From positions 124,001-188,000 of the forward strand of contig NZ_JAIUZR010000004.1 of the NCBI RefSeq assembly GCF_020171465.1: a DNA stretch of 64,000 nt. The letters are read 5' to 3'. This DNA is from Lutimonas saemankumensis. GTDB lineage: Bacteria > Bacteroidota > Bacteroidia > Flavobacteriales > Flavobacteriaceae. Positions 7,979 through 60,848 of the stretch are shown here, in pieces. The first letter of the stretch is position 1, and each line of letters opens with the position of its first letter. Both the position numbers and the translations under genes were made by a program. The notes under the pieces were generated by a model. That model had not been told where the DNA came from and did no database searches. It saw nothing but the letters and a program-made list of their open reading frames with translations.

Positions 7979-7991
7979 AAACAACTGCCCT

Positions 7992-10457: not shown

Positions 10458-10462
10458 ACACA

Positions 10463-12409
10463 ATGAAAAGGTGTACTCTTTTTTTGATCTTTTTTGTGAT
10501 TAGCAGCAGTCTTTGTTTCTCACAGGTAAATACTTCAAAAAAAACATCAAACATCTACTATGTGAGTAACTCAGGCAATGATGAAAATAATGGCAGTAAG
10601 CTGGCTCCATGGAAAACCATTGAGAAAGCAAACAAGGCTCTTGCAAATGACTCAAATGGTGGATTCCTTCTTCCCGGTGACAAAATTCTGTTTAAAGCAG
10701 GTGATCAATTCCATGGTAACCTTCTTATCAACAGATCAGGCAGTAAGGAACGACCCATAGAAATATCAAGCTATAGTCTTGGTGAAAAACCTGTTATTTC
10801 AGGGTCAGGAAATATTGAAGGTGGAGATTATTTTGAGGCCATTAAAATTACCAATGCCAGTCATATACTGGTTACCAATCTTTCCGTTAAAAACAACAGA
10901 AAAAACACCAGTCGCTATTCCTGGGGATCTGAAATCAGTTATGGGATTCATTTGGTAGCCAATAAATGGGGAGGTGTGATGAAAGACCTAACTTTCAGGA
11001 ACTTAATTGTATCCGACGTTTATGGTGTTAATCTGCCGGAAGTTTTTAATGACTTAAAGGTCACGGGAATCCGCATCAGTTCAGAGGCTAACGAAGATCA
11101 GAAAGAGGTGGGCATCCATGATGTGCTAATTGAGGATTGTTATTTTACCCATATCAGTAAAGCGGGCGTTTGGGCGGTGCACAAAGGAAATACAGATCCT
11201 GATGATGACACTGTCAACAGGAATCAAAATATCGTGGTACGAAACAATACTTTCTATCAAACAGGAGGGTCAGGAGTTATTCTATCGAAAACCTATAACG
11301 GTCTGATTGAGAACAATGATTTTGACCATACAGGATACAGTAACATTGAAGAACCTCGACTAATTGGCAGAGGAAGTGGCGCCTGGGTATGGAGCTGTCG
11401 GAATATCATTGCCCAGTTCAACAGGTCATACAGCGTCAGAGGATATGCCGACTCTTACAGTATGCATATTGATTTTGGAAATAAAAATGTGATTTTTCAA
11501 TACAACTACAGCGAGGATACTGAAGGGGGATTCTGTGAAATTCTTGGTGACAATATTAATTCAACTTATCGATTTAATGTAAGTGTGAACGACGGGTTCA
11601 GAAGAAATGGCAGTTCTATCTGGGTTTCTGACTTTGCCGGAAAGAATGCAAGAATTAAATCAGATTACAATTACATCTACAATAACACGATCTTCCTGGA
11701 TAAAAATATCACTCCTGATATTAAGATAAAGGCCCGAAATACATTTATTTACAACAATATTTTTACGGCCCTTAATGGTGAAATTGCAGCCAATACAGAT
11801 ATTACCATTGAAAATGGAAGTAAACTTTCACTTTCAAACAATTTATACCACGGAAATATAAATGATCAGTTCATCTTATTAGATGAAAATACCCTTTTAG
11901 CGGATCCTTATTTTAAAGGAGATTCAGAAATAAATAAAAATGCTTTTAAAATACTTCCGGAAAGCCCGGTGATCAATAAGGGTATGATGTTTTCCGAGCC
12001 TTTGTTTCCGATGGCAGGCTCTGGAATATTCGAACATATTTCTGAATTTGCCTCAACGGACACCTTCAACAATGAGGTTGACCTTAAGGCGTATGCACCA
12101 AATATAGGTGCCAGCAATGAGCACAATTCAAATCTTGTTCTGGGACTGCATCCTGTTAGTGATACAAAGAACATATTTAAAATATATCCAAATCCGGTTA
12201 CACGGCAGATAAATTTCCAGATGAACACCGAGGTTAAACCTGAAATCATCGAAATTTTTGACATACAGGGAAAATTGATTCATGATATTTCTCCCAACAA
12301 ATATTATACGAGTATTAGTTTACCAGATTCTATTAAGAATGGCATATATTTTCTTAAAATGGCATCTGGCAAAGCTATCCAAACAAGTCAATTTGTCTTA
12401 TACCGATAA
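10463..12409 (+). CDS. Right-handed parallel beta-helix protein with T9SS C-terminal sorting domain; candidate secreted glycan lyase or hydrolase
   Basis: 648 residues. Signal peptide ending CFSQ. It opens with NIYYVSNSGNDENNGS and PWKTIEKA, the entry motif of pectin-lyase-like beta-helix enzymes, followed by repeated helical rungs rich in N and I (for example ENNDFDHTGYSN, GRGSGAWVWSCRN, QFNRSYSV, HIDFGNKNVIFQYNYSED). The last ~75 residues (IYPNPVTRQINFQ through FVLYR) are a type A T9SS sorting domain, so the protein is exported across the outer membrane and anchored or released. It is the only protein in the window where I see this domain. Beta-helix proteins include PL6-type lyases and GH families such as GH141; exact family is not assigned. 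Inference: extracellular, possibly endo-acting on the polymer before SusCD import. Confidence 0.85.
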   Translation: MKRCTLFLIFFVISSSLCFSQVNTSKKTSNIYYVSNSGNDENNGSKLAPWKTIEKANKALANDSNGGFLLPGDKILFKAGDQFHGNLLINRSGSKERPIEISSYSLGEKPVISGSGNIEGGDYFEAIKITNASHILVTNLSVKNNRKNTSRYSWGSEISYGIHLVANKWGGVMKDLTFRNLIVSDVYGVNLPEVFNDLKVTGIRISSEANEDQKEVGIHDVLIEDCYFTHISKAGVWAVHKGNTDPDDDTVNRNQNIVVRNNTFYQTGGSGVILSKTYNGLIENNDFDHTGYSNIEEPRLIGRGSGAWVWSCRNIIAQFNRSYSVRGYADSYSMHIDFGNKNVIFQYNYSEDTEGGFCEILGDNINSTYRFNVSVNDGFRRNGSSIWVSDFAGKNARIKSDYNYIYNNTIFLDKNITPDIKIKARNTFIYNNIFTALNGEIAANTDITIENGSKLSLSNNLYHGNINDQFILLDENTLLADPYFKGDSEINKNAFKILPESPVINKGMMFSEPLFPMAGSGIFEHISEFASTDTFNNEVDLKAYAPNIGASNEHNSNLVLGLHPVSDTKNIFKIYPNPVTRQINFQMNTEVKPEIIEIFDIQGKLIHDISPNKYYTSISLPDSIKNGIYFLKMASGKAIQTSQFVLYR

Positions 12410-12461
12410 ATTGAGTAATTAATTTACAATCAATGTTAAGCATAAAAAACACCATTAAACT

Positions 12462-12821
12462 ATGAAAAAAATAGCTCTAATTATCGCACTGTTGGCATTC
12501 TCTGTTTCAAGTTTCGCACAATCAAAAAACAACTGGCAGGAAGGAAGGTTTGAGAGGTCAAAAGTATACGCTGAATTGGCAGCCGAGGAATTTGGTTTAA
12601 CTAAAGAACAGCAACAAGAAGTTTATGAGAAAAAAGTTGTGCAATATGAAGAATCGTATGAAGCCAAGAAAAAATACAAAAAAGGTGAAATAACCAAAGA
12701 GGAATTGAAAATTCCTAATAAAAAATTTGGAAAATACTTTAGTAAATTAACTGGTAAAAATTATCAGGAACTAAAACCATTTTACGAAAAAGTTCAAAAA
12801 GAAATGGCGAAAATCAAATAG
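12462..12821 (+). CDS. Small secreted charged helical protein, function unknown
   Basis: 119 residues with a clean signal peptide (MKKIALIIALLAFSVSSFAQ). The mature part is almost entirely predicted helix and very rich in Lys and Glu, with motifs LAAEEFGLTKEQQQEVYEKK and FSKLTGKNYQELKPFYEKV. No catalytic motif is visible and I do not recognise a named family. The two-helix, heptad-like pattern is reminiscent of small periplasmic Spy/CpxP-like or DUF4890-like helical proteins, but that is only a resemblance. Start is well supported by the signal peptide. It lies 52 bases after the beta-helix gene and 49 bases before an esterase, in the middle of the enzyme operon, so it is probably co-expressed with glycan breakdown. 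Confidence 0.7.
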   Translation: MKKIALIIALLAFSVSSFAQSKNNWQEGRFERSKVYAELAAEEFGLTKEQQQEVYEKKVVQYEESYEAKKKYKKGEITKEELKIPNKKFGKYFSKLTGKNYQELKPFYEKVQKEMAKIK

Positions 12822-12870
12822 TATAATAGAAGCGCTACTACTCTAAATCGATTCGAAAAAGTTGTCGACA

Positions 12871-13758
12871 ATGAAAAAAATAATTCTTAATGCCCTGTTT
12901 TTTTTAACAACTGCATCCTTATCCGCCCAGATTAGCCCGGACGAGAAAGTAGTCTATAAAAAAATCGACAGCGTTGAATTATCACTTCATTTCTTTTTCC
13001 CGAAGGATCATTCAGATCAGGATCAAGTTCCTGCCATAGTATTCTTTCATGGCGGAGGATGGAAAGGAGGCGCACCAAACCATTTCTACAACCAATCCGA
13101 GTATTTTGCCTCAAGGGGAATGGTTGCTGTAAGTGTTCAATACAGGACTGAAAAAGCAAACAAAACAACTCCGGCAGAATGCGTCAAAGACGGAAAGTCT
13201 GCGATGCGATGGATTCGAAGTAATGCCTCAATATATGGAATAAACCCTAACAAGATAGCTGCTGGAGGTGGTTCAGCAGGGGGAAATGTAGCCGCAGCCA
13301 CAGCTGTCTTAAAGGGATTTAATGAATCAGGTGAAGACCTTTCTGTAAGTTGCAAACCTGACGCCTTGGTCTTATTCAATCCAGTGGCTAACAATGGGCC
13401 AGACGGCTATGGATATGATCGTATAAAAGAATATTGGAAAGAATTTTCACCCTATCACAATTTAGAGAAAGGCACCTCCCCTACTTTGATCATGTTAGGT
13501 ACCAAAGACAAATTATTCACAGTGGATCAGGCTAAACATTACAAGGAAAAAATGGAGAGCTTTGGGGATCGTTGTGATCTCATTTTGTATCAGGATCAGG
13601 ATCATGCCTTTTTTAACGTGGATAGAAACCAGGAGATGCATTTTCAAACCATGAAAGATGCAGATATTTTTCTGACTTCTCTGGGATTTCTAACAGGGGT
13701 TCCAAACGTAAATCAGTTTCGGGAAAATTACCTGACATTCATGAACCAATCGAATTAG
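12871..13758 (+). CDS. Secreted alpha/beta-hydrolase (BD-FAE/lipase-like carbohydrate esterase)
   Basis: 295 residues from the ATG at 12871. An in-frame TTG nine bases upstream could extend it, but the ATG gives a proper signal peptide MKKIILNALFFLTTASLSAQ. The oxyanion motif HGGGW is at residues 60-64. The nucleophile elbow GGGSAGG puts Ser135 as catalytic, with Asp213 (LGTKDKLF) and His245 (QDQDHAFF) completing the triad. This is the layout of acetylesterases and of feruloyl-type enzymes of the BD-FAE group. It probably removes acetyl or similar esters from the glycan so that sulfatases and glycosidases can act. Substrate is inferred from context. Confidence 0.85.
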   Translation: MKKIILNALFFLTTASLSAQISPDEKVVYKKIDSVELSLHFFFPKDHSDQDQVPAIVFFHGGGWKGGAPNHFYNQSEYFASRGMVAVSVQYRTEKANKTTPAECVKDGKSAMRWIRSNASIYGINPNKIAAGGGSAGGNVAAATAVLKGFNESGEDLSVSCKPDALVLFNPVANNGPDGYGYDRIKEYWKEFSPYHNLEKGTSPTLIMLGTKDKLFTVDQAKHYKEKMESFGDRCDLILYQDQDHAFFNVDRNQEMHFQTMKDADIFLTSLGFLTGVPNVNQFRENYLTFMNQSN

Positions 13759-13782
13759 TAAATAAAAACAATAAGAAGAAGT

Positions 13783-15243
13783 ATGAGGGTAAAAAAAACC
13801 ATAACATTATTCGCTCTTTGTTTGATGAGCCTTTTGAAATTTGCTTATGCTCAGCAACAAAATAAACCTAACCTTATCATCATACATACTGACGAGCATA
13901 ACCTAAGAACCATAGGTGCTTACCGAGAAACAATGTCTGAAGAACAGGCTTATATGTGGGGAAAGGAAGCGGTTGTTAACACCCCGAATATAGATAAGCT
14001 GGCAGAACAAGGTGTTCTATGTACAAACTGGTACGCCCCTTCACCCGTCTGCACACCTTCAAGGGCTTCTATGGTCAGTGGACTCTATCCTGTGGCGACA
14101 GGTTCTCCTGTCAATGACATGCCTTTGAATGATGATGTAGTCACTTTTGCACAAATATTAAAGGATAACGGTTACGCCACGTCATATGTCGGAAAGTGGC
14201 ACCTGGACGGCGATGACAAGCCAGGGATTCATCCTGACAGAAGTTTTGGTTTCTCAGATAACAGATACATGTTTAACCGGGGGCACTGGAAAGTTTTGAA
14301 AGAGGATGAAGAAGGTCTAAAGCTTGGACAAGATTTTGATGGTAAAAAAATAACCTGGAGACAGGAAGATGCCAATGAGAAATCCTTTACTACAGATTTC
14401 CTGACAGATAGAACTCTGGAAATCATAAAAAGAGATCGTGAGCAACCTTTTTGCGTGATGCTTTCATTACCCGATCCTCATGGCCCTAATCAGGTAAGGG
14501 CACCTTATGACACCATGTATACTGATATTAAATTCGAAGATCCGAGAACGATGCATCCTACCCCGGAACAGACACCGGGTTGGTTAAACATTACAGGAAA
14601 GAAGAATTCAGGAAGGAAAGTAAACCAAAGAGCCATGGCCCACTATTTTGGAATGGTTAAGTGTATCGATGATAATGTGGGAAGAATATTAACCTTTCTA
14701 AAAGAAAATAATCTTGATGAGAATACAATAGTAATCTTCACCTCCGATCATGGAGACCTACTGTATGAACATCAAAAATTAAACAAAGGGAATCCCTATG
14801 AGATGTCCGCCAGGGTCCCTTTTCTCATTAGATATCCAAAAAAAATAAAAGCTAAAAAACAAATTCAAAAAGCTTTTACAATGGTGGATTTTGCCCCAAC
14901 CGTTTTAGGTTTGATGGATGTTGAACATTCTGCATATCAATTTCATGGCATAGATGCTTCCAAGGACTTTACGAGTAAAAAAATGACAATCATTGATGAC
15001 CGAACCGTGTATATAACAAACGCCAATAAAAGGTGGGTAGCTGCAGTGAACAATCGCTACAAACTTGTCTTGTCTCCTAAAGGTAAACCCTGGTTATTCG
15101 ATCTGGAAAAAGATCCTGATGAACTCATCAACTTTTACACGAATCCCAAATATCAAAAGATAGCTCAAGAACTGGAAGAGGAGCTTTTTGCCCAGATGGA
15201 AGAATTTAAAGAGCCTTTAAAGAAGAAGGATTTAATCAGATAA
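13783..15243 (+). CDS. Formylglycine-dependent sulfatase (S1), periplasmic
   Basis: 486 residues, signal peptide ending FAYAQ. Active-site motif CTPSRASMVSG with Cys90. The metal motif is HTDEHN (Asp37, Glu38) rather than the usual DD, which is seen in some sulfatase clades. YVGKWHLDG, SLPDPHGP and FTSDHGD supply the catalytic Lys/His and the second metal site; the last one has DHG rather than DNG. An unusual insertion, RETMSEEQAYMWGKEAV, follows the first metal motif. It heads a run of three consecutive sulfatases (13783-18147) separated by 6 and 3 bases, suggesting a desulfation cassette. Sulfate position and sugar unknown. Confidence 0.92.
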   Translation: MRVKKTITLFALCLMSLLKFAYAQQQNKPNLIIIHTDEHNLRTIGAYRETMSEEQAYMWGKEAVVNTPNIDKLAEQGVLCTNWYAPSPVCTPSRASMVSGLYPVATGSPVNDMPLNDDVVTFAQILKDNGYATSYVGKWHLDGDDKPGIHPDRSFGFSDNRYMFNRGHWKVLKEDEEGLKLGQDFDGKKITWRQEDANEKSFTTDFLTDRTLEIIKRDREQPFCVMLSLPDPHGPNQVRAPYDTMYTDIKFEDPRTMHPTPEQTPGWLNITGKKNSGRKVNQRAMAHYFGMVKCIDDNVGRILTFLKENNLDENTIVIFTSDHGDLLYEHQKLNKGNPYEMSARVPFLIRYPKKIKAKKQIQKAFTMVDFAPTVLGLMDVEHSAYQFHGIDASKDFTSKKMTIIDDRTVYITNANKRWVAAVNNRYKLVLSPKGKPWLFDLEKDPDELINFYTNPKYQKIAQELEEELFAQMEEFKEPLKKKDLIR

Positions 15244-15249
15244 AAGAAT

Positions 15250-16680
15250 ATGATTTCGATGCGGGCCCAACATCTTTTAATATTACTGTTTATTTTAATG
15301 GCAGGTTCCCTTTATGCACAGGATAGACCCAATGTATTGTTTGTAGCATTTGATGACCTCAGGCCTTTAATAGGAGCCTATGGAGAGCCGGAACCGCTCA
15401 CACCAAACATAGATGCTCTGGCCGATCAGGCCACAATATTTGAAAAAGCCTATGTGAGTTATCCTCTTTGTTCTCCCTCGAGGGCTGCGATGCTAACGGG
15501 TATACGATTTGATAATCAGAACTGGGTAAATGGAAAAAAAGTCTGGACCTTTCCTAAAATGATTCAAACACAGGACACCTGGCCCAGGGTATTAAGAGAG
15601 AACGGATACTGGACAGCTACCAGAGGCAAGATTTATCACGGAAATGTTCCAAAATTTGATAGCAGTGCATGGGATGTGCCAGGAAAAGCTAAGGTTAAAC
15701 ACCGAGATGGTGGTCCCGAAATTGAAAAAAGAATAGTTGACATCGGGGGCAGACAAGATCAGATTGATGAATACTTTGAAAAAGATGCCGGACCTGCCGC
15801 ATTAATGTATGCTGCAGTTGACGGACCCGATGATATTTTAAATGACGGGAAAACCGCGAAGGACGTTATTGATTTTATAAAAAACCAACGTGATAAATCA
15901 AAACCATTTATGATTTCCTGCGGGTTCGCAAGACCCCACATGCCATGGGTGGCCCCTAAAAAGTATTTTGACATGTATCCTGAAGATGCAGGCAAAATGG
16001 CCTACTTACCGTCGGGAACGGTTAAAGATATCACTAAAGATCCCTTCAAAGGAAGAGGTACGGCCTTCGGATGGAATGAAGGTGTCTCTGATAAAACCGC
16101 TCAAAAACTTATAAGGGGTTATATGGCAAGCACCACATATGCAGATGCCCAGATGGGAAAAGTAATTCAGGCCTTGAAAGATGAAGGCCTGTATGACAAC
16201 ACCATCATAATCGTCTGGGGAGACCATGGATACCATCTTACGGACCATGGTAAGTGGCGCAAAAACACGGGATACAACATCTCACTAAGGGGTCCTTTGA
16301 TCATTAAAACACCTCATAACAATAAGGCACAAATAGTGAATAATGTAGTGCAGAATATAGATATTTACCCAACGATATTAGATCTTTTAAACATTGAGGC
16401 ACCAGAAGACGTCATATTACATGGAAAAAGCCTGGTACCTCTTTTGAATAACAAAAAAGTTGATTGGGAGGATATTGCATTTACCTGCGCTGTTGGAAAC
16501 TATGGCCTGGTAACAGACCGTTATCGATTTACCAAATTGGAAAAAGGGGGTTATTTATTATACGATCTTAAAAATGACCCTCATGAGTGGAACAATTTAG
16601 CCTCAAACAAAAAATATAAAAAACTAATTCAGGAATTTGAAACCAGAATAGAAAAAGTGGTTTGGAACAAACCGAAATAA
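15250..16680 (+). CDS. Iduronate-2-sulfatase-like sulfatase (S1_7-like)
   Basis: 476 residues with signal peptide ending GSLYAQ. Reads AFDDLRPLIGAYGEPE, the FDDLRP form typical of iduronate-2-sulfatase relatives, and CSPSRAAMLTG with Cys74 as formylglycine precursor. TRGKIYHGN replaces GKWH, and GFARPHMPWVAPKKYFDMYP and WGDHGYHLTDHGKW are the clade's other hallmarks. Relatives in marine Bacteroidota remove 2-O or 3-O sulfate from uronic acids or 6-deoxyhexoses in ulvan, glycosaminoglycan and fucoidan loci, so clade alone does not fix the substrate. Start at 15250 chosen; a second ATG at 15259 is equally usable. Adjacent gene 16684-18147 belongs to the same clade. Confidence 0.9.
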   Translation: MISMRAQHLLILLFILMAGSLYAQDRPNVLFVAFDDLRPLIGAYGEPEPLTPNIDALADQATIFEKAYVSYPLCSPSRAAMLTGIRFDNQNWVNGKKVWTFPKMIQTQDTWPRVLRENGYWTATRGKIYHGNVPKFDSSAWDVPGKAKVKHRDGGPEIEKRIVDIGGRQDQIDEYFEKDAGPAALMYAAVDGPDDILNDGKTAKDVIDFIKNQRDKSKPFMISCGFARPHMPWVAPKKYFDMYPEDAGKMAYLPSGTVKDITKDPFKGRGTAFGWNEGVSDKTAQKLIRGYMASTTYADAQMGKVIQALKDEGLYDNTIIIVWGDHGYHLTDHGKWRKNTGYNISLRGPLIIKTPHNNKAQIVNNVVQNIDIYPTILDLLNIEAPEDVILHGKSLVPLLNNKKVDWEDIAFTCAVGNYGLVTDRYRFTKLEKGGYLLYDLKNDPHEWNNLASNKKYKKLIQEFETRIEKVVWNKPK

Positions 16681-16683
16681 TTT

Positions 16684-18147
16684 ATGAAAATGAAAATACG
16701 AGATTACACATTTATACTTTTAATCTGCCTTGGCCTTGGTACAAGTTTTACTTCAGCTCAGGAAAAACAACCCAATATCTTATTCATAGCTATTGACGAT
16801 ATGAATGACTGGACGGGCTTTTTGGGAGGGCATCCGGAAACCATTACACCAAATATGGATAAGTTGGCAAAAAAAGGAGTAAACTTTACCAATGCACATA
16901 CCTCGGCTCCGGGTTGCTCCCCCAGCCGAAATGCATTGTTATACGGTATTCAACCTTTCAAGTCAGGACTATATCCCTTCTACGAGCATGACATTCATAG
17001 GGAATTGATGGAGAAATACACCTCCTTGCCAAGATTACTTAAAGAAAACGGTTATCTCACCTTTGGCGCGGGTAAAATACATCATGGCAATCTCAGTGAT
17101 ACGAGGGAATGGACAGAATTTCACAAAACAAAGGCCAACCCCAAAAGGTTTAAAGAGGGTGAAGGTTATGTTAAAGGTAACAATAAAAAATATTCATTCA
17201 GGCCCACTATTAACCCTGATGAAGAGCATATTGACCATCAGGTGGCATCGTATGGAATTGAAAAACTAAATGAAAAGCATGATAAGCCCTTCTTTTTAGC
17301 TGTCGGAATTGTAAAGCCTCATTTGCCATTCGATGCACCTGTCCGATTCTTTGACGCGCTTCCGGATCAGGTCACTCCGCCGGAGGTACTTGAAAATGAT
17401 TCTGATGACATTCCTGCAGTGGGCCGATCATTGCAAAAAAGAGGCGAATATAATCATTACCTCAGCAAAGGGGTTTGGAATGAGGTAAGAAAGTCTTATT
17501 TAGCCTGTATTTCATGGGCAGATTACAATATTGGCAGAGTATTGGATGCTCTTGAAAAAAGTGACTATGCCGACAATACGGTAGTCGTCCTTTGGTCTGA
17601 CCATGGTTATCATCTGGGAGAAAAAAAGACCTTCAAGAAATTTACACTTTGGGAAGAAGCAACTCGGGTTCCGTTTATCATTTATGACACAAGAACCAAA
17701 GGGAAAGAAAACGCTGACAACTATACAGATGCAGTTTCTCTGATCAATGTATATAAAACAATTGCCGACTACACAGGTGTGCAAATCCCGGATTATGTAG
17801 ATGGCGAAAGTTTGGTGCCTATCGTAAAAGGCCATTCGGAAAAATTGAAAAACCCAACCATTATCGCATGGGGAAGAGGTAACTATTCCGTCAGATCAAA
17901 AACACACCGATATACTCGTTATTTTGATGGTGGAGAAGAATTGTACGATCATCAAAACGATCCGAATGAATGGAAGAATCTTGCAAAAGATGAGAAGTTT
18001 GAAGTCGTTAAACAAGAACTCTCAGCTTATTTACCTTCAGTTGAAGAACCAATGGTTAGCGACTTTGTTTCTCCATGGAGTATTGAAGGAGCGGATAAGG
18101 CCGCTTATAAAAAGAAGAAAGGGACTTCTCACAAGAAAACGAAATAA
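16684..18147 (+). CDS. Iduronate-2-sulfatase-like sulfatase (S1_7-like), second in tandem
   Basis: 487 residues, signal peptide ending SFTSAQ. Motifs: IDDMNDWTGFLGGHPE at about 37-52, CSPSRNALLYG with Cys78, GAGKIHHG (in place of GKWH), GIVKPHLPFDAPVRFFD and WSDHGYHLGEKKTF. The NDW...GGHP block and the following HTSAPGCSPSR are shared with the sulfatases at 51877 and 59029, so three to four members of this clade serve the locus. The C-terminal 20 residues are Lys-rich (AAYKKKKGTSHKKTK). Its stop is immediately followed by the start of a beta-helix protein (TAAATG), which implies co-translation with that candidate polysaccharide-cleaving enzyme. Confidence 0.91.
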   Translation: MKMKIRDYTFILLICLGLGTSFTSAQEKQPNILFIAIDDMNDWTGFLGGHPETITPNMDKLAKKGVNFTNAHTSAPGCSPSRNALLYGIQPFKSGLYPFYEHDIHRELMEKYTSLPRLLKENGYLTFGAGKIHHGNLSDTREWTEFHKTKANPKRFKEGEGYVKGNNKKYSFRPTINPDEEHIDHQVASYGIEKLNEKHDKPFFLAVGIVKPHLPFDAPVRFFDALPDQVTPPEVLENDSDDIPAVGRSLQKRGEYNHYLSKGVWNEVRKSYLACISWADYNIGRVLDALEKSDYADNTVVVLWSDHGYHLGEKKTFKKFTLWEEATRVPFIIYDTRTKGKENADNYTDAVSLINVYKTIADYTGVQIPDYVDGESLVPIVKGHSEKLKNPTIIAWGRGNYSVRSKTHRYTRYFDGGEELYDHQNDPNEWKNLAKDEKFEVVKQELSAYLPSVEEPMVSDFVSPWSIEGADKAAYKKKKGTSHKKTK

Positions 18148-19623
18148 ATGAAAAACTACAGATTAATTCTATTTCTTTCTTTTTTTACCTGTTTTTCCAT
18201 GATGGCAGAAACCTATTATGTAAATTCCAGTTTTGGAAATAATCGTAATAGTGGCATAAGTGAAGCCAAGCCTTGGAAAGATCTTACAAGGGTTAACAAA
18301 CAAAAGTTTGAACCAGGAGATATAATTTTGTTTGCATCCGGGACAAGTTATTTTGGAACATTGGAACCAAAAGGATCAGGTTCAGCAGAGAGCCCTATCC
18401 TTATCGATAAATACGGAAGTGGCCCAAAGCCTGCTATCCATGGCACCGGCTGGAAGGACCATACCCTTCTACTTTATAACGTTGAATATTGGGAAATCCG
18501 AAACTTAGAGATCACAAATCAAGGCCCCGAGAGAAAAGCACGGAGAAGAGGTGTGATCATTAGAGCGGTGGATTTTGGTGATTGTCATCATATTGTTTTA
18601 GAAGGACTCGAAATCCATCATGTCAATGGTTTATTGGAAAAGAAAAAAGGCGGCGGTTCAGGAATTTTATGGGAAAATAAAGGAAAAAGAGTAAAAACCA
18701 GGTTTATAGATCTACAGATCCTGAACAATTATATTCATCATTGTGACAGAAACGCTATAAATTCAAAAGGAAACATACAGCGAACGGCCTGGCACCCTAG
18801 TTTGGGAGTTGTGATTAGAGGAAACCTGATAGAAAACGTTCCAGGAGACGGTATCGTTCCCCTTGGATGTGACGGGGCTTTGATCGAATACAATGTCATT
18901 CGCAAGGGCCTGGATGTTATGTCCGTTGGGGACGCGGCCGCAGGAATCTGGCCCTGGAGTTCAGACAACACATTGATTCAGTTTAATGAAGTAAGTGACC
19001 ATAGAGCTAAATGGGACGGACAGGCATATGACGCCGATTTCAATTGTATAGGTACAACCTTTCAATACAACTACAGTTATGACAACTGGGGAGGATTTAT
19101 GCTGATCTGTAATAATGGCAACAAATTAGGTGAGCCGAATAATATAGGAACCAAGGACACTAAAATTCATTATAATTTAAGTATAAATGATGGTTTACGT
19201 CCTTACAAGGCGCACAATAAGAGGTTCTTCTCTCCCATATTCCATATTACAGGACCCGTTGAGAATACTGACATTCATCACAACATTATCATTATGCCAA
19301 AAAAACCTGTTGATGACATCGAAAATACCTTGATTGAGTTTGGTGATTGGGGAGGTACCTTTCCCATTGATACCCAATTTTCAAACAATATTATCCGTAG
19401 TCAGGAACCTTCTGGAATTTTAAAAAGAGACCAGGCTTCAGGGTTAATTGAGCAGGGCAATGATGTACAATCGGATTTTGATTATGAGGAGAAAAATCCA
19501 TTAAAAGTATTGGGTCAGCTAAAGGAACACCCTATGTTCAAGAACAATTCAGATTTTGAGTTATTACATAAGTTTATTAAACACAGAATGACACATCCGG
19601 ATCCTAGATTTGCAGGACGATGA
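18148..19623 (+). CDS. Right-handed parallel beta-helix protein, candidate polysaccharide lyase or glycosidase
   Basis: 491 residues, signal peptide ending SMMAE. Opens with TYYVNSSFGNNRNSGISE and PWKDLTRVN, followed by KFEPGDIILFASGT and a beta-helix core (about 90-450) with rungs such as LEGLEIHHVNGL, ILNNYIHHCDRNAIN, VIRGNLIENVPGDGIVP and IQFNEVSDHRAKWDGQAYDADFNC. No T9SS domain, so periplasmic. It resembles the other two beta-helix proteins in the entry motif and in the GIWPWSSDN/TFQYNYSYDNWGG segment, which probably lines the cleft. The conserved DADFNC and HID-F-like segments may carry catalytic acids or metal ligands, but that is inference. It follows a sulfatase with no gap. Confidence 0.82.
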   Translation: MKNYRLILFLSFFTCFSMMAETYYVNSSFGNNRNSGISEAKPWKDLTRVNKQKFEPGDIILFASGTSYFGTLEPKGSGSAESPILIDKYGSGPKPAIHGTGWKDHTLLLYNVEYWEIRNLEITNQGPERKARRRGVIIRAVDFGDCHHIVLEGLEIHHVNGLLEKKKGGGSGILWENKGKRVKTRFIDLQILNNYIHHCDRNAINSKGNIQRTAWHPSLGVVIRGNLIENVPGDGIVPLGCDGALIEYNVIRKGLDVMSVGDAAAGIWPWSSDNTLIQFNEVSDHRAKWDGQAYDADFNCIGTTFQYNYSYDNWGGFMLICNNGNKLGEPNNIGTKDTKIHYNLSINDGLRPYKAHNKRFFSPIFHITGPVENTDIHHNIIIMPKKPVDDIENTLIEFGDWGGTFPIDTQFSNNIIRSQEPSGILKRDQASGLIEQGNDVQSDFDYEEKNPLKVLGQLKEHPMFKNNSDFELLHKFIKHRMTHPDPRFAGR

Positions 19624-19659
19624 CCTAAAATTTAAAACTCATTTTCCAACATACCGGTA

Positions 19660-21294
19660 ATGAATAAGTATACTATAATGAATACACTTAAAACCGTTTA
19701 TACCTTTGCCTTTTTTGTATTGTTATCGATATCATCCTTTGCCAAGGAGTATTATGTGAATGCAGAAACCGGTAGTGATAAAAACAATGGTACCAGTCCT
19801 GCCACAGCCTGGAAATCGCTTAAAAAAGTTAGTGATAAAAACTTCAAACCGGGAGATCAAATCCTGCTGGCAACCGGCCAGATTTTCTTTGGATCCATTC
19901 AATGGAACAATCAATATGGAAAAAAATCAAAGCCAATTATTATTTCGAGCTATACGGTGGGCAACAGCAATGTTAAACCCATTATCGACGCTCAAAATCA
20001 TTTGAATGGAATTAAACTTGAAAACTGCAGTTTTATCACAATAAACGGCTTGTCAATAAGAGCTGATGGGGGGAACAATAACCCAAAAAGAGGAATGCGC
20101 TGCGGTATTTTGTATACCACGAATACTGGGGGTAGTTACAACGATATTAGCATTAAAAATTGTACGGTGAAGGATGTATTTTTTGAAAACGAAAATTTTG
20201 AGCGTGGTAAGGATGAAGTGAAAACGGCAAATGGAACCCAAAGCTACGGGTGGGGAATTCGTTTTTTGCTTTCAAAGAACAGCAAATTAAAAAATGTACT
20301 TATTGAATCGAATGAGATTGAAAATGTGAGCCATACAGGAATAAAAATGAAGGGAAACATTGACCAACTTAGAATCTTTGGAAACAAAATCTTCAAAACA
20401 GGTGGTCCCGGCATGCAGTTTAGCGGTATCACCAATGGCCATATCAAGGGTAATGACATTAACTACTCAGGATCTAAAGATGATACCAGAAAATGGGGAC
20501 GAGGGAGCGGTATGTGGACCTGGGGTTGTGATAGTATACTGATTGAACATAACTCATTTAGAAATGCAAATGGACCTGCAGATTCGGCAGGCTGTCATAT
20601 TGATTTCAATTGCAAAAATATTGTAGTACAATACAACCTTAGTGAAAATAATGCCGGTGGATTTGCAGAGATTTTAGGAAATAACTGGAATTGCGCCTAC
20701 AGATACAATGTGAGTATCAATGATGGCCATCGTATTAAAAAGAAAGGAGTTGCATTTCAGGAAGGAAAAATATTCTGGTTAAGCGGTTTTGTTGGTAAAG
20801 ACAGACAAAGGCATGGACCATACAACTCCTATTTTTACAATAATACCATTTATGTAAAGAGTGATATTATCGCAAAAATGGCTGTTTCAAAAGTGGCAGA
20901 AGGTGTTTTGATCACCAACAATATCTTTTATATTGAAGGAGATAGTAAGGCCGTATTGGGCGATCAGTACAAGCCTCAGGAAGCTGGAGAGGCAGATATA
21001 CCCAACGTGATTTTTCAAAACAATCTTTTCCTTAAAGCAAGTAACTGGCCTAAAAGTGTACTTATTCAGGATGAGGCCCCAGTTTTTGGAAACCCAGGAT
21101 TTTTTAACCCTGGTGGAAGTAAAATAACTGATTATACGCCAATCAATGTTAATCTGATCAAAAACAAAGGAATTGATATACCTATGGTTCCAGGAGATAA
21201 AAAAGGATTGATTTATGGATTAAAGGTTGAAAAAGATATTTTAGGGAATGAAATTAATGGGAAACCGGATATGGGCGCGATTGAAGTGAATTAA
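19660..21294 (+). CDS. Right-handed parallel beta-helix protein, candidate polysaccharide lyase or glycosidase (third copy)
   Basis: 544 residues. The first ATG is at 19660; a second at 19678 gives a compact signal peptide ending SISSFAK. Entry motif EYYVNAETGSDKNNGTSPATAWKSLKKV, then FKPGDQILLATGQIFFGS. Core rungs include GRGSGMWTWGCDSILIEHN, CHIDFNCKNIVVQYNLSENNAGGFAEILGN and YRYNVSINDG, each nearly matching the T9SS-exported protein at 10463 (GRGSGAWVWSCRN, HIDFGNKNVIFQYNYSEDTEGGFCEILGD). These matched blocks mark the likely active-site face. No sorting domain seen. It ends the first block of the long plus-strand run; the following 149 bases hold regulatory-looking dyads. Confidence 0.82.
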   Translation: MNKYTIMNTLKTVYTFAFFVLLSISSFAKEYYVNAETGSDKNNGTSPATAWKSLKKVSDKNFKPGDQILLATGQIFFGSIQWNNQYGKKSKPIIISSYTVGNSNVKPIIDAQNHLNGIKLENCSFITINGLSIRADGGNNNPKRGMRCGILYTTNTGGSYNDISIKNCTVKDVFFENENFERGKDEVKTANGTQSYGWGIRFLLSKNSKLKNVLIESNEIENVSHTGIKMKGNIDQLRIFGNKIFKTGGPGMQFSGITNGHIKGNDINYSGSKDDTRKWGRGSGMWTWGCDSILIEHNSFRNANGPADSAGCHIDFNCKNIVVQYNLSENNAGGFAEILGNNWNCAYRYNVSINDGHRIKKKGVAFQEGKIFWLSGFVGKDRQRHGPYNSYFYNNTIYVKSDIIAKMAVSKVAEGVLITNNIFYIEGDSKAVLGDQYKPQEAGEADIPNVIFQNNLFLKASNWPKSVLIQDEAPVFGNPGFFNPGGSKITDYTPINVNLIKNKGIDIPMVPGDKKGLIYGLKVEKDILGNEINGKPDMGAIEVN

Positions 21295-27562: not shown

Positions 27563-30472
27563 ATGAAAAAAGCGCTTTTTATAACATTCTTATTCATCGT
27601 ATCAGTAAAAAGTATTGCCCAGTATGACACAAGCCATGAGTCGATTGCCTCATATGATGTTCCGAATTGGTACAGCGAAGGAAAACTTGGAATATTTATG
27701 CATTTAAGTGCATTTACAGTTCCAGCTTTTAAAAATGAATGGTACGCAACAAGTATGTACTATGCCGAAGACAATCCTAATATTAGACATAAGGAGTGGA
27801 CTAAATCATTTAGGGATCATCATGAAAAAACCTATGGCCCATTAAATGAGTTTGGATATAAAGACTTTATACCCATGTTCACCTTGGAAAAGTTCGATGC
27901 CGATTACTATGCCGATTTGGTAAAAAAATCTGGCGCGGCTTATTTCGCAGCTCCTGCAGTACACCATGATGGCTTTGCCATGTGGGATTCTAAAGTCATA
28001 GAATGGAATGCAAAAAAAATGGGGCCAAAACGCGATGTTGTTCGTGAGTTGACCAATGCCATGCGTAACAAGGGAATTAAAACCGGTGTTTCCACACACT
28101 ATGGGCGCCACTGGAAGTATTACACCTTCCGACCAGAGTTCGATACATGGGATAAAGCGAACGAAGGTCTTTACGGAAAGCGTCGTAGAGATACCGATCC
28201 TCCCCGACCGGAAGATGCTTTAAAGTGGGAGCACGTTCTAAATGAATTAATCGATAATTACCAACCCGACTATATTTTTGTTGATGGAGGAATATGTGAC
28301 GGCTATACCGAATATAAAAAGCCTTATTTTAGAGATGCCTTGTATCGGGTTGTGGCTCACTACTACAACAAAAGTAAAGAATGGAACCAAGATGTAGTGC
28401 TTTCCTGGAAACGTGATGCCATGACTAAAGGGGAAGCGGTTTATGATACGGAAGGTATTTTAGAAGACGGTATTCCCAAACGCCCGTGGCAGGCACATTT
28501 CACAGTAAACGGCAGCTGGTCTTATGTAGGAGAAAAACCGGCAACATCGATGAATGCTATCATTCGTTCATTTGTTGACCTGGTGAGTCGCAATGGAAAT
28601 CTCTTACTGAATATTGGCCCAAGGCCAGATGGAACCTTGGATAAAAATCAGGAAAATGTGTTATTGGAACTTGGTCAATGGTTAGCAATAAATGGTGAGG
28701 GAATTACTAAATCTACACCCTGGAACACTTGGGGAGCAGGAAAATTAAATTCTTTAAGGGGAGGCTCGGATCTTAATGACTATGACCGAAATGCCGTTCG
28801 ATACACACAAAAAAACGGAAATCTGTATGCCTGGTTCGTGACCTGGCCTGAAAATGGAAAAGTAACACTTCCCATAGCTGGAAATTATAATGCTAAAAAC
28901 ATCGTACCATTAGGAGGGAAAGGAACTTTAAAATTTTCCAAAAATGGTGATAACCTGATCGTTGAACTGCCAAATGAGAAATTTGGCCAATATGTCTGGG
29001 GATTGAAATTATCAAAAGATGAGGATGAACCACGAAATGAATTACAAGAAGTTGCTGCAGCGGCCGTGGCCATGAGCGGAGGAGATGAAAGCGGTCCTCT
29101 TCCTACTCGTTATAAAACAGAAAAACCCCTCCCTTTTCCTAAAGGAGGAGAATGGTTTAAAAAGGCTGGTTTGGGATTATTTATTCACTGGGGTCCCGCA
29201 TCTGTTGCCGATATTGAAGATGTCTGGCGCATCAGGCAGCCCGTGAAAAACAGTGATCCATTGCGTCCAAAGGTTACTCCTCAATATTACTATGATCATG
29301 CACCTGAAGGATTTACTGCGGAGAATTATGATGCAAAAAAATGGATTGAAGCTGCTGCAAAAGCAGGATTCAAGTATTCGGTTTTAACCTCAAAACATCA
29401 TGATGGTTATGCATTATGGCCAAGCAAACTTTCTGATCTGGGAGTGAGTACCTATTTACAAGGGCGTGATCTGTTACAACCCTATGTGGATGCCTTGCGC
29501 GACAATAATATGAAAGTTGGATTCTATTTCTCAGGAGCAGATTGGTGGCAGGACCGTGATTATATGAATTACTATTTCAGTCGCGGTAAAGAAGGATGGG
29601 ATTTTCAAGGAAAGCCTTATCCTCAAAATGCTGTAAAACCGTTGCCGATGAAAATTGTAGAGAACAAGAAGCAGATGGCCTTTGAGGTGATGGAACGGTA
29701 TCGTCCGGATCTTTGGTGGTGGGATTCAGGCTTACCTGTTACGTATGAAGAAACGGCCCTGAAATACAATCCTAACATGATCTTTAACAACCGGGGTAAC
29801 TGGTATCACGATGGAAAACTAAAAGGGAAATACCCGGGCTCAAATTTCGCTACTCCGGAAGGGTTTCATTCTTTGGAGTGGAAGCATGTAAAACAATTGA
29901 TCAAAACAAATACGCCCTGGGAAGTTTGTATGACCTTTCAGCGTTCGGGATGGTTTTACCACGGTCGTAATGGATTGGGTGATCAAACTGCAGCGCTTGA
30001 AGATATCATGTATGCCTTGGCAAGGGTACGATCCTGGCAAGGAAACTTACTCTTGAATATATCTCCACGAGCAGACGGAACACTTCCCGATGCGGTTTAT
30101 ACTGATTTCGAAAAAATGGCACGATGGATGGAATGGGGACAAGCAGCAGTATACAATACAAAAGGAACCCATTTTCCTGAAAAATCGAATGTACCAATTA
30201 CAACTTCTCAAGACAACAAAGTTTGGTACTTGCATGCGCGTCCAGGACAACAATCAGACGCCAATACATGGGGGAAATGGAAGAAAATCTATTATACAGG
30301 GACGGAACCCGGGAAACCGATTCGTGTCACAGAAGTACCAAAAGTAACTTCAGTTAAATTACTGCGCACAGGTGAGCGAATAGATTATAGCCTAAAAAAT
30401 GGCAATCTTGAAATTCAGAATCCGGATGCAGGTCCTGATGGCTTGCATGAAGTGATAGAAATAAAATTTTAA
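27563..30472 (+). CDS. Tandem double GH29 alpha-L-fucosidase (two catalytic modules in one chain)
   Basis: 969 residues, about twice the usual GH29 length; signal peptide ending VKSIAQ. Module 1 (about 25-480): SEGKLGIFMHLSAF, VHHDGFAMWDS, and YQPDYIFVDGG with predicted nucleophile Asp241, then SRNGNLLLNIGPRPDGTLD. Linker about 485-518 is Ala/Gly/Glu-rich. Module 2 (about 525-969): KAGLGLFIHWGPAS, KHHDGYALWPSK, YRPDLWWWDSG with predicted nucleophile Asp721, and SWQGNLLLNISPRADGTLP. Both modules keep the retaining-fucosidase framework, but module 1 has MHLSA where HWG is usual, so its pocket differs. It releases alpha-L-fucose (or a related 6-deoxy or L-galacto sugar). Two modules suggest two linkages, or sulfated and unsulfated fucose, handled by one protein. 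Confidence 0.9.
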   Translation: MKKALFITFLFIVSVKSIAQYDTSHESIASYDVPNWYSEGKLGIFMHLSAFTVPAFKNEWYATSMYYAEDNPNIRHKEWTKSFRDHHEKTYGPLNEFGYKDFIPMFTLEKFDADYYADLVKKSGAAYFAAPAVHHDGFAMWDSKVIEWNAKKMGPKRDVVRELTNAMRNKGIKTGVSTHYGRHWKYYTFRPEFDTWDKANEGLYGKRRRDTDPPRPEDALKWEHVLNELIDNYQPDYIFVDGGICDGYTEYKKPYFRDALYRVVAHYYNKSKEWNQDVVLSWKRDAMTKGEAVYDTEGILEDGIPKRPWQAHFTVNGSWSYVGEKPATSMNAIIRSFVDLVSRNGNLLLNIGPRPDGTLDKNQENVLLELGQWLAINGEGITKSTPWNTWGAGKLNSLRGGSDLNDYDRNAVRYTQKNGNLYAWFVTWPENGKVTLPIAGNYNAKNIVPLGGKGTLKFSKNGDNLIVELPNEKFGQYVWGLKLSKDEDEPRNELQEVAAAAVAMSGGDESGPLPTRYKTEKPLPFPKGGEWFKKAGLGLFIHWGPASVADIEDVWRIRQPVKNSDPLRPKVTPQYYYDHAPEGFTAENYDAKKWIEAAAKAGFKYSVLTSKHHDGYALWPSKLSDLGVSTYLQGRDLLQPYVDALRDNNMKVGFYFSGADWWQDRDYMNYYFSRGKEGWDFQGKPYPQNAVKPLPMKIVENKKQMAFEVMERYRPDLWWWDSGLPVTYEETALKYNPNMIFNNRGNWYHDGKLKGKYPGSNFATPEGFHSLEWKHVKQLIKTNTPWEVCMTFQRSGWFYHGRNGLGDQTAALEDIMYALARVRSWQGNLLLNISPRADGTLPDAVYTDFEKMARWMEWGQAAVYNTKGTHFPEKSNVPITTSQDNKVWYLHARPGQQSDANTWGKWKKIYYTGTEPGKPIRVTEVPKVTSVKLLRTGERIDYSLKNGNLEIQNPDAGPDGLHEVIEIKF

Positions 30473-53561: not shown

Positions 53562-54425
53562 TTGAAACTAGAATATCATCCATCCACAATTTCGAATTTT
53601 GAATCCTTTTATGTAGAAAGAAAAAAGTCTCCATATTACGGGCTTCATTGGCATTATCATGAAGAATTCGAAATCCTGTATACCATCAAGGGCGAGGGAG
53701 TAAGGATTGTTGGAGATAATATGGATCATTTTAAAGGTGAGGAATTGGTCTTTCTCGGGTCAGGATTGCCTCACCTGTTCAAAAATGACGAAAAGGACGA
53801 ATCCAAATCTGTTGATTTTATTGTAGTAAAATTTGGTCAGAAATTTAATGATGTCCCTCTCTTCTCTCTTCCGGAATTCTCAAAAATCGATCGTTTCCTA
53901 AAATCTGCTCACAGGGGGCTCATATTCTCCAAAGAAACTGCTAAAAAGGTAAGTAAAGAATTAATCAAATTGTCAAAATGCAAAGACGCCGATAAGATTA
54001 TTCATCTTATATCTGTGCTTCAAATTCTCTCACAGGAAAGTAACTACCAGTATTTGGCAAGTGAAAACTTTTCTTCCAGAATTTCTGACAGAGGTGAGGA
54101 TAGGATGCAAAAAATAATTGATTACATTTCAAACCATTATACCAAAGATATTTCCTTGGAAGATCTTGCCGAAGTAGCCCATATGACTACAAATTCATTT
54201 TGTAGGTTCTTTAAGAACAGAACTGGTAAGACGGCCTTCCAGTTCATCAGAGAATTCAGGATAAACAAGGCTTGTCAAATGCTTATTAATGGAGAAAAGA
54301 GTATCGCAGAAATTTGCTATGATACCGGGTTTAATTCCTTTTCCAGTTTTAACCGTATTTTCAAGAATATGAAAGGTATTTCCGCCAGTGAATACAAAAA
54401 TAAGTACATGAGTCTTAATTATTAG
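53562..54425 (+). CDS. AraC-family transcriptional regulator with cupin sensor domain, TTG start
   Basis: 287 residues. N-terminal cupin (about 5-140) with HWHYHEEFEILYTIKGEGVRIVGD; His29, His31 and His33 may bind ligand. C-terminal AraC double HTH (about 185-285) with ISLEDLAEVAHMTTNSFCRFFKNRTGKTAFQFIREFRI and AEICYDTGFNSFSSFNRIFKNMKG. The start must be TTG at 53562: an in-frame stop lies 15 bases upstream (TAA at 53547), no ATG occurs in between, and the next Met would remove part of the cupin. Regulators of this type usually sense a monosaccharide or its derivative in the cytoplasm, so it could control the catabolic operon that converges on it at 54464. 113 bases separate it from the sulfatase upstream. 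Confidence 0.9.
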   Translation: MKLEYHPSTISNFESFYVERKKSPYYGLHWHYHEEFEILYTIKGEGVRIVGDNMDHFKGEELVFLGSGLPHLFKNDEKDESKSVDFIVVKFGQKFNDVPLFSLPEFSKIDRFLKSAHRGLIFSKETAKKVSKELIKLSKCKDADKIIHLISVLQILSQESNYQYLASENFSSRISDRGEDRMQKIIDYISNHYTKDISLEDLAEVAHMTTNSFCRFFKNRTGKTAFQFIREFRINKACQMLINGEKSIAEICYDTGFNSFSSFNRIFKNMKGISASEYKNKYMSLNY

Positions 54426-54463: not shown

Positions 54464-55489
54464 TCAGGATACTGAGTTCGAATATCCAAGCAAAATACTG
54501 GCAAAGATCAAAACCACGAGACCAACCAACAAGAGTTTGAATGGCTTCTTAGCACCTTTCCATTCTCCGGCTTTATAGGCCCAGAAATTACTCACAATCA
54601 AAGATAGTCCCAGTAACATCGGCCAACCTATTACCCCTCCTATTGGTCCGATCAAAGCTGCTCCCTGACCGTATACACCGAGTGCACCAAACCAGAATAT
54701 GCTTGCGATAATTGCCCACTTATAGGCCTTGGCTGATCCAGCAACTTTAAAATTGTTCCAGGAATTATTTTTGATCAGTAAAAATATCGCATAACCTGCA
54801 TTCATGATATAAGCTCCAAGGAGTACCACCACCCAGGCAGCCAGGCTCGCATTTCTATCCAAAGCACCCGCCTTTTCAGCCAGTTCAGCGATTGGAGCAG
54901 CGCTTACGAATCCCACATTGAGTAAGGCGGATAAGACCCCGCAGGCTACAGCAATAAAAATTCCCTTTCCGATGTTTGATTTTTCTGACACCTCTTCCTT
55001 TACCAGTTTATCCTTGTTTATTCCAGCTTTTGCTGTAATTGCTACCCCTGACAGGGTAACGATCAAACCCGCTATAACATAGGGAAACTGAGGAGTTGAA
55101 CTGGCGTCATCCATGAGCAACAGGGGAATTAGGGCTCCAACAGATCCTGCAAGACCCATCACGATTCCCATGGTCAGTGAAAGGCCTATATAGGGAACGC
55201 TCACCCCAAAAAGAATACCTCCGATACCCCATAAAAAACCGAACAACATTGCCATAAAAACAACTTCGTTCATTGCCGGGTCAGAAAAAGCCGTAGCCAA
55301 TACCCCGAACAGGTCCGGTACTACAAGGTAAGCCCAAATGACAGGAATAATAAGCATTGCGATCGTTGCATGCACCAGCCACCACGATTCCCATTTTAGG
55401 GGAGCCATATACTTCATGCCGAGTCCAAAAGATCCTTGAAAAACACTGGCAAATATGATTAATAAGAAAGGAAAAAACATTGAATCCAT
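54464..55489 (-). CDS. RhaT-like sugar-proton symporter
   Basis: 341 residues, ten predicted membrane helices. FGFLWGIGGILFGVSVPYIGLSLTMGIVMGLAGSVGALIP strongly resembles the signature stretch of the L-rhamnose-proton symporter family, and the N-terminal part FASVFQGSFGLGMKYMAPLKWESWWLVHA fits as well. A hydrophilic loop at about 155-172 (AGINKDKLVKEEVSEKSN) is placed as in RhaT. It should move a 6-deoxyhexose such as L-rhamnose or L-fucose, or a related sugar acid, across the inner membrane. Last gene of the minus-strand catabolic operon, 19 bases after the aldolase. The sugar is inferred; the family call is firm. Confidence 0.87.
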   Translation of the reverse strand: MDSMFFPFLLIIFASVFQGSFGLGMKYMAPLKWESWWLVHATIAMLIIPVIWAYLVVPDLFGVLATAFSDPAMNEVVFMAMLFGFLWGIGGILFGVSVPYIGLSLTMGIVMGLAGSVGALIPLLLMDDASSTPQFPYVIAGLIVTLSGVAITAKAGINKDKLVKEEVSEKSNIGKGIFIAVACGVLSALLNVGFVSAAPIAELAEKAGALDRNASLAAWVVVLLGAYIMNAGYAIFLLIKNNSWNNFKVAGSAKAYKWAIIASIFWFGALGVYGQGAALIGPIGGVIGWPMLLGLSLIVSNFWAYKAGEWKGAKKPFKLLLVGLVVLIFASILLGYSNSVS

Positions 55490-60711: not shown

Positions 60712-60718
60712 TTGAAAC

Positions 60719-60792
60719 TGGATAAAATTTAGTACAGGAACATAAATACCGACAACCATTTTCATGACAAATAAACGTATAAATTCCTGTAC
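60719..60792. promoter_or_regulatory. Divergent regulatory region with GTACAGGAA inverted repeat
   Basis: Between the operon start (60711, minus) and the sulfatase at 60888 (plus), GTACAGGAA (60732-60740) and its perfect complement TTCCTGTAC (60784-60792) form a 9-bp dyad separated by 43 bases. A TGGATAA heptamer at 60719-60725, also found in two other gaps, lies between the dyad and the operon ATG. Inference: an operator controlling the catabolic operon, probably for the AraC-type protein encoded at 53562. Confidence 0.45.
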
Positions 60793-60848
60793 AAAAAAAT
60801 TTTTATTCAAACTGGTACGGACAGGTATGGTTTATATAATTTTTATCC

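Follow-up and report, generated by a model that had tools for sequence, protein, structure and literature searches.

ErLnb136, a lacto-N-biosidase of family GH136, uses D568 as acid/base and D575 as nucleophile and stacks W548 on galactose, and known GH136 enzymes need a second domain (GH136I) for activity (PMC7335108). In Flammeovirga MY04 the second chromosome is enriched in GH136 along with GH82, GH117, GH127 and GH167 (PMC8653839), and in Winogradskyella forsetii a polysaccharide utilization locus (PUL) combining GH136 with sulfatases is called 'enigmatic', with no obvious substrate (PMC9723794). As for carrageenan, some species with a carrageenan locus are described as having no known carrageenase, and in 2019 the anhydrogalactosidase of Pseudoalteromonas was reported to await discovery (PMC5698469, PMC6923384). 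Here we examined three beta-helix proteins, BH1, BH2 and BH3, encoded in a 64,000-nucleotide stretch of Lutimonas saemankumensis (GCF_020171465.1, contig NZ_JAIUZR010000004.1, positions 124,001 to 188,000, forward strand), which is called the window below and is numbered from its first letter. We hold it somewhat probable that they are GH136-like retaining hydrolases cutting a sulfated galactan that contains 3,6-anhydro-D-galactose, not fucoidan, with surface enzymes in two clades (A and D) and an inner, exo-acting enzyme in a third (B). The proteins, one of which carries a type IX secretion system (T9SS) tail, are laid out as follows.

10463..12409, plus strand: BH1, GH136-like beta-helix protein of clade A with a T9SS tail (648 aa open reading frame)
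11450..11473, plus strand: codons of BH1 from D330 through D337, whose end residues align with D568 (acid/base) and D575 (nucleophile) in ErLnb136
12182..12397, plus strand: T9SS C-terminal sorting domain of BH1 (residues 574-645, PF18962 Por_Secre_tail, 41 bits)
18148..19623, plus strand: BH2, GH136-like beta-helix protein of clade C (491 aa open reading frame)
19660..21294, plus strand: BH3, GH136-like beta-helix protein of clade B without a T9SS tail (544 aa open reading frame)

A first-pass annotation of the sequence had described three related beta-helix proteins with matched sequence blocks and a T9SS sorting domain in the protein at 10463 alone. The frames were recovered at exactly their coordinates, each matches Beta_helix in Pfam (BH2 alone passing the curated cut-off), and identity over aligned columns is 31.5% for BH1/BH3, 25.6% for BH1/BH2 and 27.2% for BH2/BH3, with 78 invariant columns in the three-way alignment. 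The relationship thus stands, as does the placing of the sorting domain, Por_Secre_tail being found by Pfam in BH1 only among the three. The blocks fared less evenly; they are exact in BH1 (GRGSGAWVW, HIDF, QYNYSEDTEGGFCEILG) and BH3 (GRGSGMWTW, HIDF, QYNLSENNAGGFAEILG) but altered in their BH2 counterparts (AAAGIWPW, DADF, QYNYSYDNWGGFMLICN).

No known family had been recognised in these proteins, but we found GH136 to be nearest by both sequence and fold. The best PDB sequence match is 6kqs for BH1 (1.3e-20) and for BH3 (5e-15), and 7v6m (7.2e-32) followed by 6kqs (5.9e-28) for BH2, making GH136 lacto-N-biosidases the nearest solved relatives of all three by sequence; alginate lyases appear as weak later matches for BH1 and BH2. 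Identity to ErLnb136 runs from 27 to 33% across the three (highest in BH2, 33.4%), and the NCBIfam model LnbX matches each of them weakly, under its cut-off. AlphaFold models of BH1 (mean predicted local distance difference test score, pLDDT, 91.5) and BH3 (mean pLDDT 92.8) were searched with Foldseek, and BH2 was placed by sequence only. Rows 1-6 are all GH136 in each search (E 6e-15 to 3e-21; 2.9e-20 for BH3 against 7v6m), the first row outside the family being XylC for BH1 (7.7e-9) and a PL6 lyase for BH3 (5.3e-7), so that in both searches the best GH136 row is about 12 orders of magnitude in E-value ahead of the best non-GH136 row. GH141 first appears at 2.4e-5 (BH1) and 2.7e-4 (BH3).

The catalytic residues point the same way. 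W548, D568 and D575 of ErLnb136 align with W310, D330 and D337 of BH1 (the chain index in the alignment is the paper's number plus 2), and the aspartate pair is D290/D297 in BH2 and D308/D315 in BH3. The pair is complete in 122 of 122 rows (118 relatives, BH1-3 and ErLnb136). Since the D-x6-D motif itself was among the seeds of the genome scan, we recounted the aspartates on relatives in which neither scan seed occurs, where they are kept in 36 of 36; they are also kept in all 10 rows from whole-genome searches, which may overlap with those 36. Judged from the seedless relatives, the conservation of the pair exceeds chance. The stacking position is aromatic (W, F or Y) in 121 of 122 rows and is W in BH1-3. 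No fused GH136I domain was seen in the frames of the three proteins or in the models of BH1 and BH3, no search for a separate GH136I partner having been made. The first-pass annotation had allowed for a lyase, and had named PL6 as a family to check; the conserved pair is of the retaining-hydrolase type, PL6 is not the best fold match and ranks behind GH136, and no uronate-processing partners of families GH88 or GH105 are among the Pfam matches of the window, all of which speak against that suggestion.

We then compared the proteins in a tree, built by a quick method and with two GH136 reference rows only, one of them in pieces. The two rows are set apart from the BH group by a branch with 100% support and a length of 1.44. 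By sequence, BH1-3 belong with a GH136-like beta-helix group outside GH136 proper, and CAZy tools may already assign proteins of this type to GH136. Clade A, with BH1, has 24 rows, clade B, with BH3, has 61, and clade D, mostly from the ocean, has 21; BH2 falls in a small group (clade C), and the branching order among A, B and D is not settled by the tree. A T9SS tail is present in 18 of the 19 clade A members given to Pfam, and the same 19 carry the binding modules CBM_4_9 (in 5) and CBM_35 (in 4). Ten N-termini were inspected by eye, and seven start with a lipobox-like signal, these being the ones from ocean-type loci (five of clade D, two of clade B). With a conserved catalytic pair and with BH1 of a consistently exported kind, the helices are indeed plausible suppliers of the cutting activity that the first-pass annotation had found to be missing. 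Three tandem relatives of BH2, each of about 1000-1100 aa, lie at 7829-17574 of a locus (L105) whose genome is titled goat-colon Clostridia.

The food of the locus is suggested by a second group of genes, near the other end of the window.

53562..54425, plus strand: AraC-type regulator adjoining the cassette (Pfam)
54464..55489, minus strand: RhaT-like sugar/H+ symporter of the drug/metabolite transporter (DMT) type, 57.7% identical to its counterpart in L119
55509..56273, minus strand: HpcH/HpaI aldolase, candidate 2-keto-3-deoxy-galactonate aldolase, presumably non-phosphorylative (Pfam)
56296..57771, minus strand: DauA-like aldehyde dehydrogenase, probable 3,6-anhydro-D-galactose dehydrogenase (PDB match 6pnu/6pop)
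57768..58922, minus strand: DauB-like enolase, probable 3,6-anhydro-D-galactonate cycloisomerase (PDB match 5olc)
59029..60810, minus strand: sulfatase adjoining the enolase (Pfam)

The enolase matches 5olc, which is DauB, the 3,6-anhydro-D-galactonate cycloisomerase of Zobellia, at 472 bits (53.1% identity) and 4ggb, the galactarolactone cycloisomerase AtGCI, at 304 bits (39.4%), and it keeps D87, K166, D194, E220, E246, H296 and W298 at the same numbers as in PMC5698469. Two other identities were tried and rejected: 3,6-anhydro-alpha-L-galactonate cycloisomerase (5xd7) reaches 135 bits against 472 for DauB, and arabinonate/galactonate dehydratase gives NCBIfam matches below cut-off only, with DauB far ahead in the PDB. 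Since the enolase prefers DauB to the L-type enzyme, the anhydrogalactose is probably the D form. The aldehyde dehydrogenase matches 6pnu/6pop at 476.7 bits (about 47% identity), the next match being at 329 bits. These entries are among the depositions of PMC6923384, which describes DauA with and without NADP+, and we take them as DauA because their molecule name is 'Aldehyde dehydrogenase'. L119, a Zobellia-like dau cluster, has an enolase 99.2% identical to DauB, and the regulator cgrA of the Zobellia cluster is of the AraC family (PMC5698469), as is the window gene. An HpcH aldolase adjoins the aldehyde dehydrogenase in two further loci as well (L114 and L124), and the 59029 sulfatase, for which a PDB search gave no specific neighbour, is the best window match of the sulfatase adjoining the dau genes in L116 and L118. 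In a relative (genome G056, locus L114) an enolase of the window type (71.9% identical) stands with GH127, two GH16, a SusD-like gene and GH2, and this GH127 is 65.9% identical to the Zobellia-like one. As far as sequence comparison can tell, this is a dau-like cassette with DauA and DauB as nearest solved relatives, and a sulfated galactan bearing anhydrogalactose is a better-supported food of the locus than fucoidan.

The beta-helix and dau genes stand together in other genomes. In 13 of 79 loci (L056 at 9806-18342, L053-L055, L058, L061-L063, L065, L070, L095, L096 and L109) a single strand carries the run BH-BH-DauB-DauA-RhaT-PfkB-KDPG aldolase (the last for 2-keto-3-deoxy-6-phosphogluconate), and three more loci have the same run without the enolase. 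Junctions in the 13 loci are 15 bp or less in 76 of 78 cases, taking the first ATG as start, and the opposite strand carries a sulfatase in 12 of 13 and GH2 in 9 of 13, four loci ending inside or before these genes. The PfkB kinase, the aldolase and the outer neighbours were named by Pfam in L056, where the outer neighbours look unrelated to polysaccharides. From their record names, we take the operon genomes to be open-ocean plankton Bacteroidota. Relatives of GH127, DagB and GH16 were found in none of the 79 loci (searched over as much as 10 kb of DNA on either side, with one or two queries for each family), and sulfatase relatives were found in 52. GH127 has no match in any of the 16 operon genomes or in a Polaribacter metagenome-assembled genome (L057); in the source genome a single partial match (109 of 376 positions, 31 bits) exceeds the family cut-off and no copy is full-length, and the carrageenan-type genomes G022, G032 and G056 have four, three and two matches. 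DagB was found in 1 of 30 genomes, the Zobellia-like control G022, with no match in the source genome, whose four GH16 matches include none on contig 4. A DauB-type enolase (E <= 1e-80) is present in 43 of 73 BH genomes (34/48 and 9/25, one at only 44% identity) and in 7 of 148 relatives (5/140 without and 2/8 with a full-length BH); G025, one of the relatives, evidently carries L053 and thus counts in both sets of BH genomes. These counts ignore kinship, and taking the 16 operon genomes as one gives 28/58.

Two genomes hold two dau cassettes each. In Algibacter mikhailovii (G150) the cassette on contig 4 stands with three GH127 and a GH16, and the second, on contig 6, has no GH127 on its contig; the contig 6 stretches share with the window BH3, GH116, SASA, two BH1, GH2, an esterase, several sulfatases, a hybrid two-component system regulator (HTCS), AraC, RhaT, HpcH, aldehyde dehydrogenase and enolase, with about 182-195 kb of the contig outside the stretches read. 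In Carboxylicivirga (G183) the cassettes are on contigs 4 and 8, near full-length GH127 is confined to contig 4 (contig 2 has a partial match), and some 33 kb separate BH3 from the enolase of contig 8. Both genomes suggest different galactans for the BH locus and the GH127 locus.

The substrate, the bond cut, the endo or exo roles and the part of BH2 are what we infer. In the reading we prefer, the substrate would be a galactan of the carrageenan or furcellaran type, perhaps a hybrid with L-galactose. Retaining hydrolysis is predicted from the likeness to GH136, with the first aspartate of D-x6-D acting as acid/base, the second as nucleophile and the aromatic residue holding the next sugar. 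BH1 may cut the polymer outside the cell, and the clade D lipoprotein of the ocean operon may do likewise, as the export signals and binding modules of clades A and D suggest. BH3 would act further in, together with sulfatases and a GH2 beta-galactosidase, freeing anhydrogalactose or its disaccharide; this role is assigned to clade B because dau genes adjoin it and GH127 and DagB are missing, and in it clade B would fill the place of GH127 (DagA) and GH16 in classical carrageenan loci. The freed sugar could then pass into the DauA/DauB-like cassette.

Several observations weigh against this reading. The seven residues kept by the enolase are common to DauB and AtGCI and so speak for catalytic competence, not for substrate. 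GH136 enzymes are described as pocket-shaped and exo-acting on milk glycans (PMC8106489), and an endo role would need a cleft altered from that pocket. The first-pass annotation had named membership of a characterised exo-acting family as a result that would count against a new backbone-cleaving family; the nearest family, GH136, is exo-acting, but the BH proteins lie outside its clade. A DauB-type enolase at E <= 1e-80 is missing in 30 of 73 BH genomes, and within the relatives alone the link between BH and DauB is weak (2/8 against 5/140, p = 0.047). The ocean genomes are small, probably incomplete and mutually related, so the count overstates independence. Near full-length GH127 occurs elsewhere in 17 of the 45 BH genomes searched (of 73), and therefore BH need not replace GH127. 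In L116 (genome G070) dau genes stand with GH2 and a sulfatase, and BH is found neither in the stretch read nor in a search of the genome; G023 and G056 have enolases of the window type with only partial BH matches. Other glycoside hydrolases of the window (GH43, GH116, GH95 and GH29) could each act on other linkages. Finally, we know of no activity for any close relative of the BH group. In literature searches, to which bioRxiv and most subscription papers did not contribute, no listed title or abstract opening describes a GH136-like enzyme at work on carrageenan.

These enzymes belong to a sulfatase-rich neighbourhood. In the window Pfam names 13 sulfatases, a double GH29, GH116, GH95, four GH2 and two GH43, together with SusD, esterases and regulators. 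Across the whole genome (3.58 Mb) there are 26 matches to sulfatase domains, and two of these appear to be fragments of a single frame. Rfam at gathering scores gave no matches in the window. The span 10463-21294, which had been given to the beta-helix proteins, holds all three, but four further genes in it, one for an esterase and three for sulfatases, encode no beta-helix. Another Flavobacteriaceae genome (L071) keeps the window order at 12862-21294, with esterase, three sulfatases, BH2 and BH3.

12862..18147, plus strand: esterase at 12862 and sulfatases at 13783, 15250 and 16684, between BH1 and BH2 (Pfam)
27563..30472, plus strand: protein with two GH29 domains (Pfam, PDB search)

Upstream of the window (L121, 4070-15659) lie a GH2 relative, a PfkB kinase, a GH78-like protein and three sulfatase relatives, and the locus therefore runs past the left end of the window. 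A 538-aa frame without a Pfam match follows at 15839-17452 of L121, just before an 820-aa frame that reaches the end of that stretch at the window's left edge. In the double GH29 protein, domain 1 (residues 13-483) ties at 275.9 bits between 7snk, named alpha-L-fucosidase, and 7ljj, named exo-alpha-L-galactosidase, followed by 7lnp (exo-alpha-L-galactosidase, 274 bits) and then a drop to 176; domain 2 (about 530-872) matches entries named alpha-L-fucosidase.

The strongest alternative is that these GH136-like hydrolases attack L-fucose, L-galactose or further side chains on a complex algal glycan, and that a different enzyme, from the locus or from elsewhere in the cell, frees the anhydrogalactose. 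The two GH43, GH116, GH95 and GH29 genes of the window would fit such a role, as would the BH genomes missing the DauB-type enolase, and the GH136 enzyme RiLea/b136 requires Fuc-alpha-1,4-GlcNAc at subsite -1 (PMC7335108). However, the sole recognised glycan-acting partners in the ocean operon loci are GH2 and sulfatase (enzymes elsewhere in those genomes being possible), and the BH genes come first in a tightly joined anhydrogalactose operon, and we regard this alternative as unlikely, if a serious one.

That the proteins form a new family of endo-fucanases or fucoidan lyases, as the first-pass annotation had proposed, seems to us quite improbable. The catabolic cassette is nearest to DauA and DauB of the 3,6-anhydro-D-galactose type and not to a fucose pathway, and the GH29 and GH95 genes and 13 sulfatases that would suit fucoidan must be read beside GH29 domain 1, where an entry named alpha-L-fucosidase ties for best match but two further best rows are named exo-alpha-L-galactosidase. 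Pfam names no GH107- or GH168-type protein in the window, no dedicated query for GH107, GH168, GH174 or GH187 having been used. Endo-fucanase activity was recently demonstrated for beta-helix GH141 enzymes encoded in a fucoidan cluster (PMC12786026), and FdlA, a fucoidan lyase, is a weak fold match (7e-5). Membership in GH141, another check named at the outset, is not borne out: its insertion domain PF21231 has no match in the source genome (the control, Bacteroides ihuae, was positive), the GH141 structure 5mqp is far behind GH136 in fold rank, and its D523/D564 pair is 41 residues apart as opposed to 7 in BH.

Weaker fold matches to PL6 lyases and to the alginate epimerase AlgE4 would suit non-hydrolytic beta-helices (lyases, epimerases or binding proteins), but the invariant GH136 aspartate pair and the lead of GH136 in fold E-value make this very improbable. 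It is most improbable that the proteins are true GH136, ordinary lacto-N-biosidases or host-glycan enzymes, even with lacto-N-biosidases as nearest solved relatives, given the fully supported branch of length 1.44 that separates them, the 27-33% identity to ErLnb136, the fused GH136I domain not found and the sulfatase relatives in 52 of 79 loci.

Returning to the galactan hydrolases that we prefer, the BH group is a concrete candidate for filling both the missing carrageenase/anhydrogalactosidase and the puzzle of GH136-sulfatase loci, and it comes with a substrate guess, catalytic residues and a seven-gene operon. A wider proposal, which we put forward tentatively as a possibility, is that a new GH136-derived group of surface endo-enzymes (A and D) and anhydrogalactose-releasing exo-enzymes (B) enables open-ocean Bacteroidota to feed on a carrageenan-like polymer with no carrageenase or anhydrogalactosidase of a known kind. 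If true, polymers bearing anhydrogalactose would also be eaten by apparent open-ocean plankton bacteria, where red seaweeds are unexpected. The operon of these apparently oceanic genomes reads as a compact gene set for the complete use of anhydrogalactose; it includes two beta-helix enzymes, no known carrageenase was seen next to it, and such a diet is surprising in the open sea.

Set against known systems, the GH136 lacto-N-biosidases (LnbX, BsaX, TnX and ErLnb136) share with the BH proteins the beta-helix, an aspartate pair seven residues apart and an aromatic residue at the stacking position. The BH proteins differ from them in clade, in sequence, in having no fused GH136I and in their sulfatase-rich loci, and BH1 and BH3 have His, not Asp, two residues before the nucleophile. 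The GH141 endo-fucanases of Wenyingzhuangia are likewise parallel beta-helices from marine sulfated-glycan clusters, but their pair is 41 residues apart, BT1002 is a weak fold match and their marker domain was not found in the source genome. GH82, like the BH proteins, is a beta-helix. No carrageenase chain is among the PDB sequence matches of BH1-3, GH82, GH150 and GH167 not having been sought by dedicated search. The BH proteins are proposed to act at the same step beside dauA and dauB as the anhydro-D-galactosidases DagA (GH127) and DagB and the GH16 and GH82 carrageenases, to which they show no sequence match (again with no dedicated GH82 search), being beta-helices with an Asp/Asp pair. 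The W. forsetii PUL, likened here by description and not by sequence, resembles the window in combining GH136-labelled proteins with sulfatases. The carrageenan cluster of Zobellia galactanivorans (ZGAL_3145-3159) has GH127 and DagB, neither of which is in the window, and otherwise shares with it DauA, DauB, the DMT symporter, the AraC regulator and sulfatases.

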